In this document: positions 9,696 to 50,059 of the stretch, in pieces
How positions within the stretch are numbered: position 1 is the first letter of the stretch
Layout: every line of letters starts with the position of its first letter
Assembly (NCBI GenBank): GCA_028289585.1
Contig: JANQPI010000010.1
Span: 372,001 to 436,000, forward strand
Length of the DNA stretch: 64,000 nucleotides
Direction of reading: 5' to 3'
From: Candidatus Zixiibacteriota bacterium
GTDB lineage: Bacteria; Zixibacteria; MSB-5A5; GN15; FEB-12
The notes under the pieces: model-generated
The model's database searches: none
What the model was told of the DNA's origin: nothing
Seen by the model: only the letters and a program-made list of their open reading frames with translations
Program-made: the position numbers and the translations under genes

Positions 9696-10898
9696 ATGGA
9701 TACGTCGTATCGCCAGCCTCGGGAGGAGTACCTCGCCGGCTCGGATCGAATGGGGATCGGACCGTTTGGGCTCTATCTTCACTTTCCCTTCTGTCCCTAC
9801 AAGTGCACGTACTGCGACTTCTATAAGCTGATCTTCAATCAGCAGCGTCAGGCAGCGTTCTTTGATGCTCTCGCGGTCGAAACGGAGCTTGCCGCGACGG
9901 CCTACGCCGAAACGGGGCTGCGAATCGCCACGATCTTCGTTGGGGGTGGCACTCCCTCGATGCTCAACATTGATCGCTTTGCCGCCTGGCTTGAGCAGGT
10001 GAAGCAGCTGTTCACGGTCCCGGTAGGTCTTGAGTTCTCGTTTGAATGCAATCCGGACTCGGTCAGTGTAGACCTCTTTCAGGCGCTCAAAGATCTGGGG
10101 GTAACCCGTCCAACCGTTGGTATTCAGTCATTCCAGCCGGAGCTGCTGGCCCCGCTTGGCCGACCGCACCAACCAGCCGACTCTCAACGCGCGATCTATC
10201 TGGCCAATGCGATCGGTTTCTACTCGTTCGGCGTCGATCTGATCTTTGGGCTGCCCAATCAGACCACGGCTCAGCTGTCGGTCGATCTTGATCAACTTGT
10301 CGATTTGCGGCCGCCGCATATCTCGTACTACCAGCTGACGGTTGAGCCGGAGACACCGATGGAGCGCCATGTTGCCGAGGGGCGGTTTCGGCTCCCCGAT
10401 GAATCGCTCTCGCTGGCGATGTATCAAGCGGGGGTCGAGCGGTTTCAAGAGGCGGGCTACACTCGCTACGAGGTGTCATCATTCTCGCTGACCGGGCACC
10501 AGTGCCGTCACAATCTCGGCTACTGGCGGGGACGGGACTATCTTGGCCTCGGTCCGTCGGCCCATTCGTTCATGCGGGGACGGCGCTACGCCAATGTGGC
10601 CGATCTCGACGCCTATATTGATGCCCTCACTAAGGGGAAACGCCCTCTCGCTGTCGACGAATCAGGCCATCTCGAACGGATGACCGAGGCGTTGATGCTC
10701 GGTCTGCGGACATCGCGGGGGATTCGCCGCGAGGAGTTCCAGCGCCGCTTCGGCTTGCCGGTCGACAGTCGGATTGACCTCGACCAGCAGGCGGTTCTGG
10801 TCGACGCCGGCTACCTGACCGTCAGCGACTCAGCGCTACGGCTTACCGACCTGGGCATGGCGATGGCCGATGAGGTTACCCGTCGACTCCTTCGCTGA
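9696..10898 (+). CDS. hemW: HemW-family radical SAM protein
   Basis: About 400 residues with the radical-SAM motif C-P-Y-K-C-T-Y-C-D-F-Y; the fourth residue pattern C-x-D-F-Y is typical of HemW/HemN relatives. It has G-G-G-T-P-S-M for SAM binding and N-P-D-S-V in the barrel. The C-terminal HemN domain includes L-G-L-G-P-S-A-H-S-F. HemW delivers heme to respiratory enzymes rather than acting as coproporphyrinogen dehydrogenase; I choose HemW because of the short N-terminus. The start is ATG 9696 (TATACT ends eight bases upstream) or ATG 9750. The stop abuts an antisense dockerin remnant. Confidence 0.88.
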   Translation: MDTSYRQPREEYLAGSDRMGIGPFGLYLHFPFCPYKCTYCDFYKLIFNQQRQAAFFDALAVETELAATAYAETGLRIATIFVGGGTPSMLNIDRFAAWLEQVKQLFTVPVGLEFSFECNPDSVSVDLFQALKDLGVTRPTVGIQSFQPELLAPLGRPHQPADSQRAIYLANAIGFYSFGVDLIFGLPNQTTAQLSVDLDQLVDLRPPHISYYQLTVEPETPMERHVAEGRFRLPDESLSLAMYQAGVERFQEAGYTRYEVSSFSLTGHQCRHNLGYWRGRDYLGLGPSAHSFMRGRRYANVADLDAYIDALTKGKRPLAVDESGHLERMTEALMLGLRTSRGIRREEFQRRFGLPVDSRIDLDQQAVLVDAGYLTVSDSALRLTDLGMAMADEVTRRLLR

Positions 10899-11027
10899 TT
10901 ACGGACAGGCCGGTAACGGCTGGAACGTAATGAACAAGTGATCGACCAGCGCGGACCAGTCGGGCGAACCGTTAACCCAAGGCAGACGTTTTCTGACATT
11001 TTTGTGACCAGACAAAGTGATAGTCAT
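10899..11027 (-). pseudogene. dockerin C-terminal remnant, 42-codon reading frame
   Basis: On the minus strand, from an in-frame ATG (11025-11027) to TAA (10899-10901), the sequence encodes a tail ending L-V-D-H-L-F-I-T-F-Q-P-L-P-A-C-P. The large dockerin protein at 46465-49995 ends L-V-D-H-L-F-I-T-F-T-P-L-A-A-C-P, with P-D-x-S-x just before in both. The calcium-loop aspartates of the dockerin repeat are lost and nothing upstream looks like a secreted protein. I read it as the residue of a lost dockerin gene. Its stop codon directly abuts the hemW stop on the other strand. A real small gene is less likely because there is no signal peptide. Confidence 0.65.
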
Positions 11028-11067
11028 GTACTAGACAGCTCGCTGTCGTCGTAGCTTATTACCGCGT

Positions 11068-12420
11068 ATGGATTTATTCGGCGATCATCCCGACCAAGCC
11101 GACCCTGAGATCGGACGTGACGCTCCGCTCGGCGAGCGGATACGCCCACAAAATCTCGATGAGGTCGTTGGCCAGAAACACCTCCTCGCGCCCGGCCAGC
11201 CGCTGCGAGTCGCGATCGATGCTGACCGCGTCGGATCGATCGTCTTCTGGGGACCACCTGGAACTGGCAAAACGACTTTGGCGCGGTTAATCGCACGGAG
11301 TACCAAGGGGCGCTTTGTACCGTTCTCCGCGGTCACCTCGGGTATTAAGGAGGTGAAAGAGGTCCTGTCCAACTCCGCCAAGCATCGGACCCTGACTGGT
11401 CAACGTACGTACGTCTTCATCGATGAAATCCACCGTTTCAACAAAGCACAACAGGACGCCTTTCTGCCGTTTGTCGAATCGGGAGAGATCAGACTGATCG
11501 GTGCAACAACTGAAAACCCATCATTTGAGATTAATGGTGCCCTGCTCTCCCGCGTTCGTGTCTATACGCTCAATCGACTCGAAAGCGACGAACTCAGGCA
11601 GTTGATTCAACGGGCGGCTACCGATACTGAGCGCGGCGTTGCCCGTGATCTTGATGACAACGCGGTGTCGGCAGTTGTCGCGGCCGCTGACGGCGACGCG
11701 CGTCGCGCTCTGACGCTTCTCGAAGCCGCAGCGAACCATGTCGATGCAGAACACCCGATCTCCGCCGAGGATATCGCAACGGTGCACCAGCAAGGTCACC
11801 TTCTTTACGACAAAGCGGGGGAGGAGCACTTCAACCTGATCTCGGCACTCCACAAGACGATGCGCGGGGGTGATCCCGATGCTGCCCTGTACTATCTCGC
11901 GCGCATGCTCGCCGCCGGCGAGGATCCGCTCTGGGTGGCTCGTCGTCTGATTCGCCACGCGATCGAAGACGTTGGCCTGGCCGACACCAATGCGCTGACC
12001 GTCGCCCGAAACGCTCGCGAGACGTATCACCTGCTCGGGTCACCCGAGGGTGAGTTAGCCCTCGCCGCGGCGGTTGTCTACCTGGCGACCGCCCCTAAAT
12101 CCAACGCGACTTACACCGCCTGGAAAGCGGCCGTGGTTCGAGTTCGGGAAACTGGATCTTTGCCGGTCCCACTCGGTTTGCGCAACGCGCCAACCGGGTT
12201 GATGAAAGGGCTCGGTTACGGAGCGGATTACGAGTATGCTCACGACGCCACCGACGCGATCACAGCCCAGGAGTACTTCCCCGACAAGTTACACGGGACG
12301 CGGCTCTATCACCCAACCGACCGTGGTGCCGAGCGGGAGATTTCCGAGTACCTGAAGCACTATCGGGAGCTTCGGAGTCGCCGCATGGCAGAAAGTCGCG
12401 AAAAATCGAACGAGCACTGA
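11068..12420 (+). CDS. rarA: replication-associated recombination ATPase RarA/MgsA
   Basis: 450-residue AAA+ clamp-loader-like ATPase that acts at stalled replication forks. [11 protein letters not shown] is the family's entry motif. Walker A is G-P-P-G-T-G-K-T (62-69), Walker [10 protein letters not shown], and sensor 1 G-A-T-T-E-N-P-S-F. The C-terminal part has the MgsA tetramerisation region with [12 protein letters not shown]. The N-terminus M-D-L-F fits the start at ATG 11068. TATTAC ends five bases before the ATG, so the message may be leaderless; the matching -35 (TAGACA at 11032-11037) is 19 bases away and weak. Confidence 0.95.
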
Positions 12421-45175: not shown

Positions 45176-46468
45176 ATGGACGTCTCACTTGCCATCCTCT
45201 TCATCGGGGTTCTGATCTTTTTGGCACATGTCTTCTCAGGCATTTTCCACCGCACCCAGATTCCTGACGTACTGCCACTCATCGGCATTGGGATCGTGAT
45301 CGGACCACTTCTTGGTGTGGTCGGAACCGACGACTTCGGGGCGGTCGGCCCCATCTTCACCACCGTTGCACTCGTCCTGATTCTCTTCGAAGGTGGGTTA
45401 GAGTTGCGACTCGATCTGCTCCGCGCCTCGATGCGCGGAACAACGCTGATCGCGCTCCTCGGCTTCGCGGTTACTGTCGTTGCGGTCGCTGCTTTCGGTT
45501 ACTATGCGATTGGTCTTGATGTCTTAACGGCGTTGATTCTTGGATCGATTCTGGGAGCGATTTCGCCTGCGGTCGTGTTGCCGTTGTCTCGAAAACTCGG
45601 GCTGATTGACGAAACCCGTGCGATCCTCTTTCTGGAATCGGCCGTCACCGACGTGCTTTGCATCGTGTTGACGCTAGGTCTGGTCGATGCTGCGTTAGTG
45701 GGGGATTTTGCGGTTGGCGGTCTCGTTGGAGATATCGTCGCTAAAGTTGTCTTTGCGATCCTCCTGGGCGGACTGGGTGCCGTGATCTGGTCGATCTTCC
45801 TCTCTCGAATTCGCACGATTGAGAACACCAATTTCATTACCCTGGCATCGGTATTTGTCGTTTTCGGACTGGTCGAGTGGATGCACTTTTCTGGGCCAAT
45901 TGCCGCGCTCGTCTTTGGATTTACTCTGGGGAACGTCGAGCAGCTAGGTCTACCCGTTCTGGCGAAGTATCTTCCTCGAAAGCCGATCGGTCTGAATCGA
46001 TTTGAGACGATGTTGCTGTCGGAAGTTGTCTTTTGGCTCAAGACGTTTTTCTTCGTGTACATCGGGCTATCGATTCTCTTCACGAATCAGACGTGGCTGC
46101 TCTATGCTCTCGCGATTTCAGCGATCATCTTTGTCGTGCGGTTGCCCATTGTCCGACTAGGCGCCGGGAGTGCAACACCCAAGTTCGATGCATCGATTAT
46201 GGCGGTGATGGTGCCAAAAGGATTAGCGTCGGCGGTCATGGCAGCGGTTGTCCTTCAGGCGGAGTTGCCGTTTGCCGATCTGATTTTGTCTGTAACCAAC
46301 TCGGTTATTCTGATCACGATTGTACTGACTGCCGGGCTTGCGTTTCTTATCTCCCGAACACCGATCGGGCAGGTGTACAAGCTGATGTTTACCGGATTTG
46401 GCCGACAATCGGCGGCCGAAGCCGCCGGTGCCGAATCGGATTCAGATACCGAGCCGGCCAGCCGCTAG
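45176..46468 (+). CDS. CPA-family cation:proton antiporter
   Basis: 430 residues with about 12 membrane segments covering nearly the whole length. Typical motifs: L-F-E-G-G-L-E-L-R-L, G-S-I-L-G-A-I-S-P-A-V-V-L-P and F-L-E-S-A-V-T-D-V-L. The last gives T-D rather than N-D at the ion site, so its ion preference is unclear. No C-terminal TrkA-N or RCK domain. It would control pH or sodium. Its TAG stop shares CTAG with the convergent dockerin gene's stop. Confidence 0.88.
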   Translation: MDVSLAILFIGVLIFLAHVFSGIFHRTQIPDVLPLIGIGIVIGPLLGVVGTDDFGAVGPIFTTVALVLILFEGGLELRLDLLRASMRGTTLIALLGFAVTVVAVAAFGYYAIGLDVLTALILGSILGAISPAVVLPLSRKLGLIDETRAILFLESAVTDVLCIVLTLGLVDAALVGDFAVGGLVGDIVAKVVFAILLGGLGAVIWSIFLSRIRTIENTNFITLASVFVVFGLVEWMHFSGPIAALVFGFTLGNVEQLGLPVLAKYLPRKPIGLNRFETMLLSEVVFWLKTFFFVYIGLSILFTNQTWLLYALAISAIIFVVRLPIVRLGAGSATPKFDASIMAVMVPKGLASAVMAAVVLQAELPFADLILSVTNSVILITIVLTAGLAFLISRTPIGQVYKLMFTGFGRQSAAEAAGAESDSDTEPASR

Positions 46469-49400
46469 GGGCATGCAGCCAGCGGCGTAAAGGTGATGAA
46501 GAGATGATCGACCAGGCTTGAAATGTCCGGCAACCCAACCTGACCGTTGGCATCGATATCGCTTTCGTCGGCACAACAGAGCGGCGTCAAAGAGATGAAC
46601 AGGTGGTCGATGAGGGCTGATAGATCGGGCAGGCCTACCGCATCATCGCAGTTGACATCACCTACCGACCCGACACAACAGCCGCACGTACTGCACCCCG
46701 GACGCAGATTTGCTGAGTACCAAGCGCAGGCACCCGCGAGAGCGGCCCGGAGATCGGTTGTCGTACCGTTCTTTACCGTCGCGTAAGCCTGATCAACGAC
46801 GAGCGTGTCTCCCGTTGCTAGTGTGAATCCGGTAGTGAGTTCAGCAGGATCGGCTGTCCCAAACACCGTGGTGATATGCTGGAAGGCCGGCGTGGTATCG
46901 AAGGCGCGACTCAAGCCGGTTGCCGCAATATTGGTGAGCAGTGAATCGACATTCCCGTTACCAAACGCTCCGGTTTCGATCTCACCGAACGTGATCCGTG
47001 AATATTGTCCGATTTCCTGGTTGCTTACGCAGCTATCGGATTGAAACGCCTGGGACGAATACCAGCTGAGTACGGTCGATGCGGCGAGGCGAGACACTCG
47101 TGAAGGACAGCCCGGGTTGGGAAGCAGACTGTCAACTGCAGTAAGGTAGACGATATCTCCGGTCTGTCCGCCACGATTGAGTCTGCCATAGTTCGAGCTG
47201 TTCTCACCCACCCGTACCGAGAGGTGCCAGTCGACTATCTCGCCGATTAGGATGTTCGGTAGCGGCATGCCGGTGAGGTTGAAGTACCTTGTCCGCGAAA
47301 CCACGAACTGGGCGGAATTGCTCGTCTGCCCGGTTGCATCGGGGGCGTACCATTCTCTCAGCATTCCGATAGTCGAGTCCTGATTGACAAAGATACCCGT
47401 GATGTATCCGTCATAGGTTTCGCCCGCGATCGATGCCGGAGAGCTTCCGGGAATACGATAAAACGTCGTCTCACCGGAGATCGACTGGTTGTACAGCGCG
47501 GTCGAGTAGCTCGGTGTTCCCGTGACGTTGGTAATGATGAACGGACCCGCATCGAGGACGTAGCGAACGGCTGTCGGGTCACAATCGGAAGCTACCGGTG
47601 CGTTCACGTAATCGAGATGCACACCGCCGGATGTCACGTTCCGAAGTCCGAATCCGCCAATTGACGAAACGAGCAGCTCGGTGTTGGCAGCAGTGATCGT
47701 ATCGAATTCGATTTCGATGACCGTGTCGGCAATCACACTGCGAAACTCGATTGGCACTAACGAATCATTCTCGGAATTGTTGGGCAGCGTGAGCGTTCCG
47801 GTAAGATCGACAACCGTTCCCGGAGAGTTGATAATACCGCCGGGATTGACCTGGATGGTCAAGCTTCCGGTATTCAATCCCGGACGGTAATCGACCGTGA
47901 GTCCCGAGGGCTGATCCGTGCCGACAGCGTTCGCGGGGGTCAAGCCGGACGGCACGAAGACTGGTGGAGAAATCACCAGCGGCGTGTTTCCGATATTCAG
48001 AATCGAAATCGGAATGTCGATCTGTTCGCCATGCCGGACAAAGTCCGGAAGTTCGAAATTTGTCGGCGGTATCGATACGATCGGAGACAAGACCGGATCT
48101 ACACAAGCCAAACGCACCCACCGCATCTCGTTGAGCGTCACCGGACCGCGGCCAAACTGACCTTCGCCGGGATAGAAGTCGAGAAGATACATGATGTGTA
48201 AGTTGTGAGAGCCGGTGTAACTGCCCGTCGGGTCAAGTTCTGCGGCAGCGGCGATCGGATCGGTAAAGTTAAGGCCGGTGATATCCTGCCCGTATCGGGA
48301 CATGGTAGCCTTCTTCTCACTCAAACAAATGCCACCGAATCCAACTGAGTCGCAGCCGGGTGTGTACGTTTGCGACAGATTACGCGCCTGATCCCAAGCG
48401 AGCCCGTCGAGCGTTGTCGAGACCGACATCCAGAGCTCATGATTGGCGCGGAAGATGTCGTCATTGACTCCACTGGTATTCGAACCGGGTGGTAATCCTG
48501 AGGCGCAGTCGTCAAGGATGTTGGCTGGATCACTCGTGTTGCCACGATTGACAACCTCATGTGTTTGCGACCAGATCGCATACAAATTCCCGTCGCATTC
48601 GGAGATCGAGAAGAACGAGACATACAGCGCGTTTGTTCCGCCGAATCCGCAGACCGGGATGCTGAACTGCAGCCCCCAGTCTGCATCCACCACATAACTC
48701 TTAGTCATCGTCCCGGAACTCCAATGGTAGATCGATGCACTGAAGTCACTCGGCGGTTGAGAGGTACTATCATACACGCCCGGGGGATACCGAATGGCGT
48801 TCCACAGGAGATGAAACTGATCATCTGACGAATAAAGCGAATGGGTCTCAATGAATGGTGCTGCGTTGTCAATCGTGTTCGGCGACTGGCGGTCGTAGTT
48901 TGTTACGTTGAGTTTCGGCTCCCAGGTAACTCCGCCATCGAGCGACTCGATAAACCACACGTCCTGATCGGCGGGATTATCCTCGGCGAATCCCTCAGCG
49001 GTAGGTCTTAGCCAGGCGATGCCAACTTTGGCGGAAACCTGCGAAGCAGAGAGGGTTCCGCGATATCCCATCGTATCAATTGTCACCGGACCGCTCCAAC
49101 ACGCTGTATCGCCTCCGTTGTCGCCCCAGCTACCGCATCCGATGCTGCCATCGAGAACACGACGGAAGTACAGGCCGATCGTCTCAGATCCGCTCAAATT
49201 CGTGAAATGGTTGCTGAAGTTGGTGTGAGCCAGCACGTGGATGACGGTATCGTTGCCCACCACGTTGATGTCGATTTGGGGATGCTGCATTGTCGAGGCG
49301 ATCGGGTCACCGAGTTCGTACTGCGACGGTGGAATTGACTGTCCTACCCCCCACGATGTACTGCCGTCACCATCCTGGAAATGCAGCTTGTTCTGAAAAA

Positions 49401-49995
49401 AAGCGGTTGCAGAGTTTCCAAACGGCGGGAGGTTATCTGAACCATACATCACAACCTGGCCATTGTTAGGATTGAATGCAGCATTCGGCCAGAGACCGAT
49501 CGAGCCGGGTGGCTGCACATTGTGTCCCGATCCGGTACCTATACCCAGCGGCCAGATGCCGTTGGTCGCATCGTAGTAGTTGTACCAGTAACGCCCATCA
49601 GACGTTGCCGTTGTGGTTGTCTTGTTCGATGCCACGAAATGGATACGCGTGATCCCGTCGTTGCCGATGGTCCATTCGACCGAGCGGCCTTTCTGCGAAT
49701 AGAACCAATCTTCGTAGGTGGGAAGTAGAGTTGCGCCGATCGACGCCGCACCGGTGCTCGCTTGAACTCGACCGAGTGGCCGGCCAATACTGGTTTCCGA
49801 TTGACCGCTACCAAGGCGGGATTCGTCGATCGTGTGAATCGGTCGCAGGTTCCGAGTATCGTGATGCTGATTTGTGACTGTGAATTGCCGTGATTCTTTG
49901 GCCTGCTGAATCTCTGTGCGGGTCGAGGCATTGGCTGGTTCGGCCAATGCCAAAAAACCTACAGCTCCCCCCATGAGAAGATAGCTGAGTCGCAT
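46465..49995 (-). CDS. large secreted dockerin-bearing protein
   Basis: 1176 residues. After a signal peptide (M-R-L-S-Y-L-L-M-G-G-A-V-G-F-L, cleavage near A-N-A) comes a region of about 550 residues with BNR/sialidase-like blade motifs (S-L-D-G-G-V-T-W, T-T-L-D-G-L-A-W), then Ig-like or Abfb-like beta domains. The last 65 residues hold a type I dockerin: two calcium repeats, G-D-V-N-C-D-D-A-V-G-L-P-D and S-D-I-D-A-N-G-Q-V-G-L-P-D, each followed by a helix (L-I-D-H-L-F-I / L-V-D-H-L-F-I). Start: the ATG at 49995 has GAGAAGGG eight bases upstream. No cohesin is visible. The stop overlaps the antiporter's. Confidence 0.82.
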   Translation of the reverse strand: MRLSYLLMGGAVGFLALAEPANASTRTEIQQAKESRQFTVTNQHHDTRNLRPIHTIDESRLGSGQSETSIGRPLGRVQASTGAASIGATLLPTYEDWFYSQKGRSVEWTIGNDGITRIHFVASNKTTTTATSDGRYWYNYYDATNGIWPLGIGTGSGHNVQPPGSIGLWPNAAFNPNNGQVVMYGSDNLPPFGNSATAFFQNKLHFQDGDGSTSWGVGQSIPPSQYELGDPIASTMQHPQIDINVVGNDTVIHVLAHTNFSNHFTNLSGSETIGLYFRRVLDGSIGCGSWGDNGGDTACWSGPVTIDTMGYRGTLSASQVSAKVGIAWLRPTAEGFAEDNPADQDVWFIESLDGGVTWEPKLNVTNYDRQSPNTIDNAAPFIETHSLYSSDDQFHLLWNAIRYPPGVYDSTSQPPSDFSASIYHWSSGTMTKSYVVDADWGLQFSIPVCGFGGTNALYVSFFSISECDGNLYAIWSQTHEVVNRGNTSDPANILDDCASGLPPGSNTSGVNDDIFRANHELWMSVSTTLDGLAWDQARNLSQTYTPGCDSVGFGGICLSEKKATMSRYGQDITGLNFTDPIAAAAELDPTGSYTGSHNLHIMYLLDFYPGEGQFGRGPVTLNEMRWVRLACVDPVLSPIVSIPPTNFELPDFVRHGEQIDIPISILNIGNTPLVISPPVFVPSGLTPANAVGTDQPSGLTVDYRPGLNTGSLTIQVNPGGIINSPGTVVDLTGTLTLPNNSENDSLVPIEFRSVIADTVIEIEFDTITAANTELLVSSIGGFGLRNVTSGGVHLDYVNAPVASDCDPTAVRYVLDAGPFIITNVTGTPSYSTALYNQSISGETTFYRIPGSSPASIAGETYDGYITGIFVNQDSTIGMLREWYAPDATGQTSNSAQFVVSRTRYFNLTGMPLPNILIGEIVDWHLSVRVGENSSNYGRLNRGGQTGDIVYLTAVDSLLPNPGCPSRVSRLAASTVLSWYSSQAFQSDSCVSNQEIGQYSRITFGEIETGAFGNGNVDSLLTNIAATGLSRAFDTTPAFQHITTVFGTADPAELTTGFTLATGDTLVVDQAYATVKNGTTTDLRAALAGACAWYSANLRPGCSTCGCCVGSVGDVNCDDAVGLPDLSALIDHLFISLTPLCCADESDIDANGQVGLPDISSLVDHLFITFTPLAACP

Positions 49996-50030
49996 ATCCA
50001 TGCCCTTCTCGATGGCTGGCGGTGTTATCA

Positions 50031-50059
50031 AGAATAGTCAGATTGCGACAGTTCGTCAA
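50031..50059 (-). promoter_or_regulatory. promoter of the dockerin gene
   Basis: On the minus strand TTGACG (50059-50054), 17 bases, TATTCT (50036-50031). Start of transcription near 50024 leaves about 29 bases with the GAGAAGGG ribosome site. Confidence 0.65.

Follow-up and report, generated by a model that had tools for sequence, protein, structure and literature searches.

Functional type I dockerin domains (Pfam PF00404) contain two 22-residue repeats with the calcium ligands D1, N/D3, D/N5 and D12. Bacterial pseudogene remnants in intergenic spacers are fragments of known families that have lost their body, carry damage at conserved residues, and lie between two intact genes. The window analyzed here is a stretch of 64,000 nucleotides from the genome of a Candidatus Zixiibacteriota bacterium. 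In it, a short minus-strand sequence between hemW and rarA differs in nothing essential from such remnants; what survives is a short, highly repeated C-terminal tail. This tail comes from the end of the second repeat in a dockerin pair of the family variant GLPDLSxLIDHLFITFTPLPPCP-stop. Whereas a functional type I dockerin has both repeats and all four ligands, the sequence after hemW has one partial repeat with D12 only. It also lacks the protein body and signal peptide, and invariant Leu positions have become Ser and Trp. None of the papers searched connected dockerins to Zixibacteria, or to pseudogenes and gene loss. The features of the locus are as follows.

9696-10898, plus strand: hemW, intact (NCBIfam TIGR00539 above cut-off; its stop codon adjoins that of the remnant)
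10899-10970, minus strand: dockerin gene remnant (3' end), GSPDWSALVDHLFITFQPLPACP followed by a stop codon (tblastn, profile and DNA match to paralogs)
10899-11027, minus strand: 42-codon ATG-to-stop frame around the remnant, not a convincing gene (translation; no family match; neither a Shine-Dalgarno-like sequence nor a hydrophobic signal stretch seen on inspection)
10971-11067, no strand: spacer without detectable dockerin similarity, taking in the rarA upstream (promoter) region (DNA search; upstream regions of rarA in relatives)
11068-12420, plus strand: rarA (MgsA-type AAA ATPase), intact (PF12002 and AAA domains in Pfam; 53 relatives have genes of 52-66% identity)
46465-50031, minus strand: intact paralog whose C terminus carries a complete dockerin repeat pair (46468-46677) (sequence; profile match of 118.7 bits)

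The minus strand reads ...VNGSPDWSALVDHLFITFQPLPACP* across the remnant. Its stop codon (10899-10901, TTA on the plus strand) touches the stop codon of hemW (10896-10898). Comparison with intact C termini showed that only the last 24 codons are present, 72 bp directly after hemW, corresponding to the C-terminal half of the second repeat. An earlier note on this DNA had reported an antisense dockerin remnant directly after hemW, which the profile, DNA, and positional data bear out, and had extended it over 10899-11027. That interval contains the remnant, but protein similarity to dockerin tails is confined to 10902-10970 (tblastn). A DNA search of 10899-11067 found similarity to paralogs at 10899-10965 and nothing resembling dockerin in 10971-11067. 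About 97 bp of the 169-bp gap between hemW and rarA thus lie between the remnant and rarA. The same note had all calcium-loop aspartates and upstream domains gone; this holds for loop positions 1, 3, and 5 and for the body, but the position-12 Asp (10959-10961) is kept.

The similarity to dockerin tails is far above background. Against a profile built from 32 intact dockerin C termini of the same genome, with the remnant excluded, the remnant scored 45.8 bits (E = 4e-13 within the window); only the intact gene at 46465 scored higher. The next unrelated stretch reached 6.7 bits, and none of 20 Markov-random windows exceeded 11.9 bits. In tblastn against its own genome the 23-residue tail gave 76 matches (75 places besides the remnant itself). 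Similarity to paralogs at the nucleotide level, whose absence would have counted against the reading of the earlier note, is present (E = 4e-5). The best local DNA matches, 81% over 47 bp and 77% over 53 bp, are to two repeats of one gene, and the best paralog over the whole tail is 68% identical, with none near-identical.

Around 45 intact genes in this genome carry the dockerin-like repeat pair, for example GDVNCDGSVGLPDLSTLIDHLFITFTPLCCxEEADVNADGSVGLPDLSTLIDNLFITFTPLPPCP-stop, and the loops of intact copies follow the dockerin pattern D1, N/D3, D/N5, D12. The repeat variant is distant from PF00404, which finds only 25 places in the genome at E = 0.01 and has no match in the 46465 protein in a Pfam search. 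The near identity of the remnant to the end of the 46465 protein, claimed previously, is correct insofar as this protein is its best paralog (78%, E = 5e-7, tblastn against the same genome), but it is not specific. Other paralog tails are nearly as close (70-79%, tblastn), and hence the remnant matches the paralog family as a whole. Specific descent from the 46465 gene was considered and rejected; other paralogs resemble the remnant about equally well at the protein level and better at the DNA level. The genome also encodes cohesin domains, two of which exceed the Pfam cut-off (C23:269697-270047 and C21:419343-419666) while five are weaker, a possible partner system for the ~45 dockerin genes.

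Several properties of the remnant are those of a decayed sequence. It has 24 codons left, whereas nearly every other copy lies in a frame of >200 codons. Only the conserved tail of dockerin genes is recognizable by our searches, however, so the survival of the tail alone partly reflects how they work. Two of 10 near-invariant positions are broken, a Leu (32/32 intact tails) having become Ser and a Leu/Ile (32/32) having become Trp, and the residues now found there occur in none of the 32 intact tails. Treated in the same way by leave-one-out, the intact tails show 0 to 2 such deviations, with two tails having two each. The count of two thus falls at the limit for intact copies and does not by itself settle the matter. 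By codon position, mean identity to the intact tails is low at the first (2/32 intact tails lower) and the second (1/32 lower) and high at the third (29/32 lower). This is the pattern expected under relaxed protein constraint, but with 25 codons compared it is suggestive only.

The remnant is not the only one of its kind. A search with a two-repeat profile found 52 dockerin places in the genome, all but three of them in frames of >200 codons, and the three short-frame places all lie inside long contigs. One is the sequence after hemW, scored in this search as a 43-codon frame. Another, C21:461226-461351, comprises 41 codons directly after the stop codon of nth (identified by TIGR01083), and its loop Asp 12 has become Gly. 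The third, C23:182542-182715 (L132, C23:182542-182943), is a decayed repeat pair in tandem behind the stop codon of an intact dockerin gene. The tail behind nth (L211, 1427-1552) is in frame with nth, with one TAG between them.

We consider it likely that the sequence after hemW is a pseudogene remnant of a gene for a secreted dockerin-tailed protein, left by a deletion and without function today. An eroded gene, as the earlier note had proposed, is the best account because a dockerin tail is present without its body and is damaged at positions that are otherwise invariant; we infer that the gene was once complete at this site, that it was removed by deletion, and that it has no present function. 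In this reading, the parent gene ran toward hemW and would once have ended at this site. A deletion would then have taken everything from the promoter and signal peptide through the body and the first repeat to most of the second loop. The final 24 codons would have stayed behind, between the stop codon of hemW and the rarA upstream region, and would now drift without function.

The main competing explanation, which we regard as unlikely, is that no whole gene was ever present and that a dockerin 3' fragment was copied or inserted at the end of hemW, for example by illegitimate recombination among dockerin tails. The remnant does begin directly at the hemW stop codon, as another adjoins that of nth, the ~45 similar tails of the genome are possible donors, and four junctions in the family have no dockerin at all. 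However, the lack of a near-identical DNA paralog (68% over the tail, 81% over 47 bp) means that no recent donor is visible, and an old event of this type would be indistinguishable from erosion.

The hemW-rarA junction was compared among relatives, all from other genera (a contig scan gave no hemW that was more than 55% identical). Counting this one, six genomes of the family were found with the two genes near each other on a single contig. An intact gene at the junction, which the earlier note had suggested looking for, was found once. In a genome of another genus (G014) a convergent dockerin gene occupies the 2.4 kb between hemW and rarA. Its 706-codon minus-strand frame ends ...GVDISDITRLIDYLFINFMPLPQLP-stop and matches the dockerin profile with 88.4 bits. 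From a plausible ATG the protein has 663 residues. Its body has weak Pfam matches only (thrombospondin type 3 repeat and DUF5122 beta-propeller), and its ectodomain has no match in the genome of the remnant at E = 1e-8. Dockerin is absent from the junctions of G028 (~60 bp), G025 (~92-93 bp), G009 (~141 bp), and G018 (564 bp). In a tree of HemW and RarA the genome studied here pairs with G017, while G014 groups with G013 and G025, and a single shared gene would therefore need several losses. Independent arrival of the G014 gene is thus as likely as a shared ancestral gene with several losses, and orthology between that gene and the parent of the remnant is not favored by the tree. Coincidence is possible because dockerin genes are dense (67 profile matches in the 2.6 Mb of G014); by a rough estimate, the chance of one dockerin neighbor among the junctions read is 5-10%. 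Three genomes from another family of the order (G048, G055, and G059; L193, L195, and L192) have plus-strand dockerin genes of a different type between hemW and rarA.

It is conceivable, but in our view very unlikely, that dockerin genes repeatedly arrive at, and are lost from, the hemW-rarA junction or, more generally, the stop codons of housekeeping genes, and that such remnants could serve as homology for exchange of paralog 3' ends. This idea draws on the junction genes of G014, G048, G055, and G059 and on the remnants after hemW and nth.

That the 42-codon frame is a real small gene making a short dockerin-tail peptide is hardly credible. It is open from the ATG at 11027 to the stop codon, but its sequence has neither a signal peptide nor a Shine-Dalgarno-like sequence, it matches no family, its calcium loop is mostly missing, and its invariant residues are broken. 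No small frame of this type was found at the junctions read in relatives. It should not be called a gene by annotators. The frame also overlaps the rarA upstream region. In the family this region has a conserved element, TTGTGATT between positions -40 and -45 relative to the ATG together with a TATATT-like hexamer at -11 to -16, present in 17/19 other family loci (among L012-L038, L189, and L190). This suggests a leaderless rarA transcript. The rarA gene studied here does not have the element at that distance and instead has TTGTGA at -66 and CTTATT at -13 (10990-11067).

Retention of the DNA as an RNA or terminator element, for which its position between two genes is the only argument, has a next to negligible probability, given no terminator-like site, no Rfam match, and folding no better than that of shuffled sequences (z = -0.58, 0.65, and -0.01).

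As a pseudogene remnant, the sequence after hemW is a small, ordinary marker of gene loss and decay, not a new system. Three decayed tails beside ~45 intact genes indicate turnover of a large family of secreted dockerin proteins. Six short-frame matches were also retrieved from G017 and G009. Five of these are located at the end of a contig or next to it; as they may be assembly cuts, they were left out of the count of remnants. The sixth (G009:C13:20031-20225) lies in a 103-residue frame, internal to its contig. Contigs C53, C3, C74, and C71 of G017 and C8 of G009 (L215-L219) end in or close beside a dockerin repeat, as if these repeats were breaking the assemblies of the relatives.
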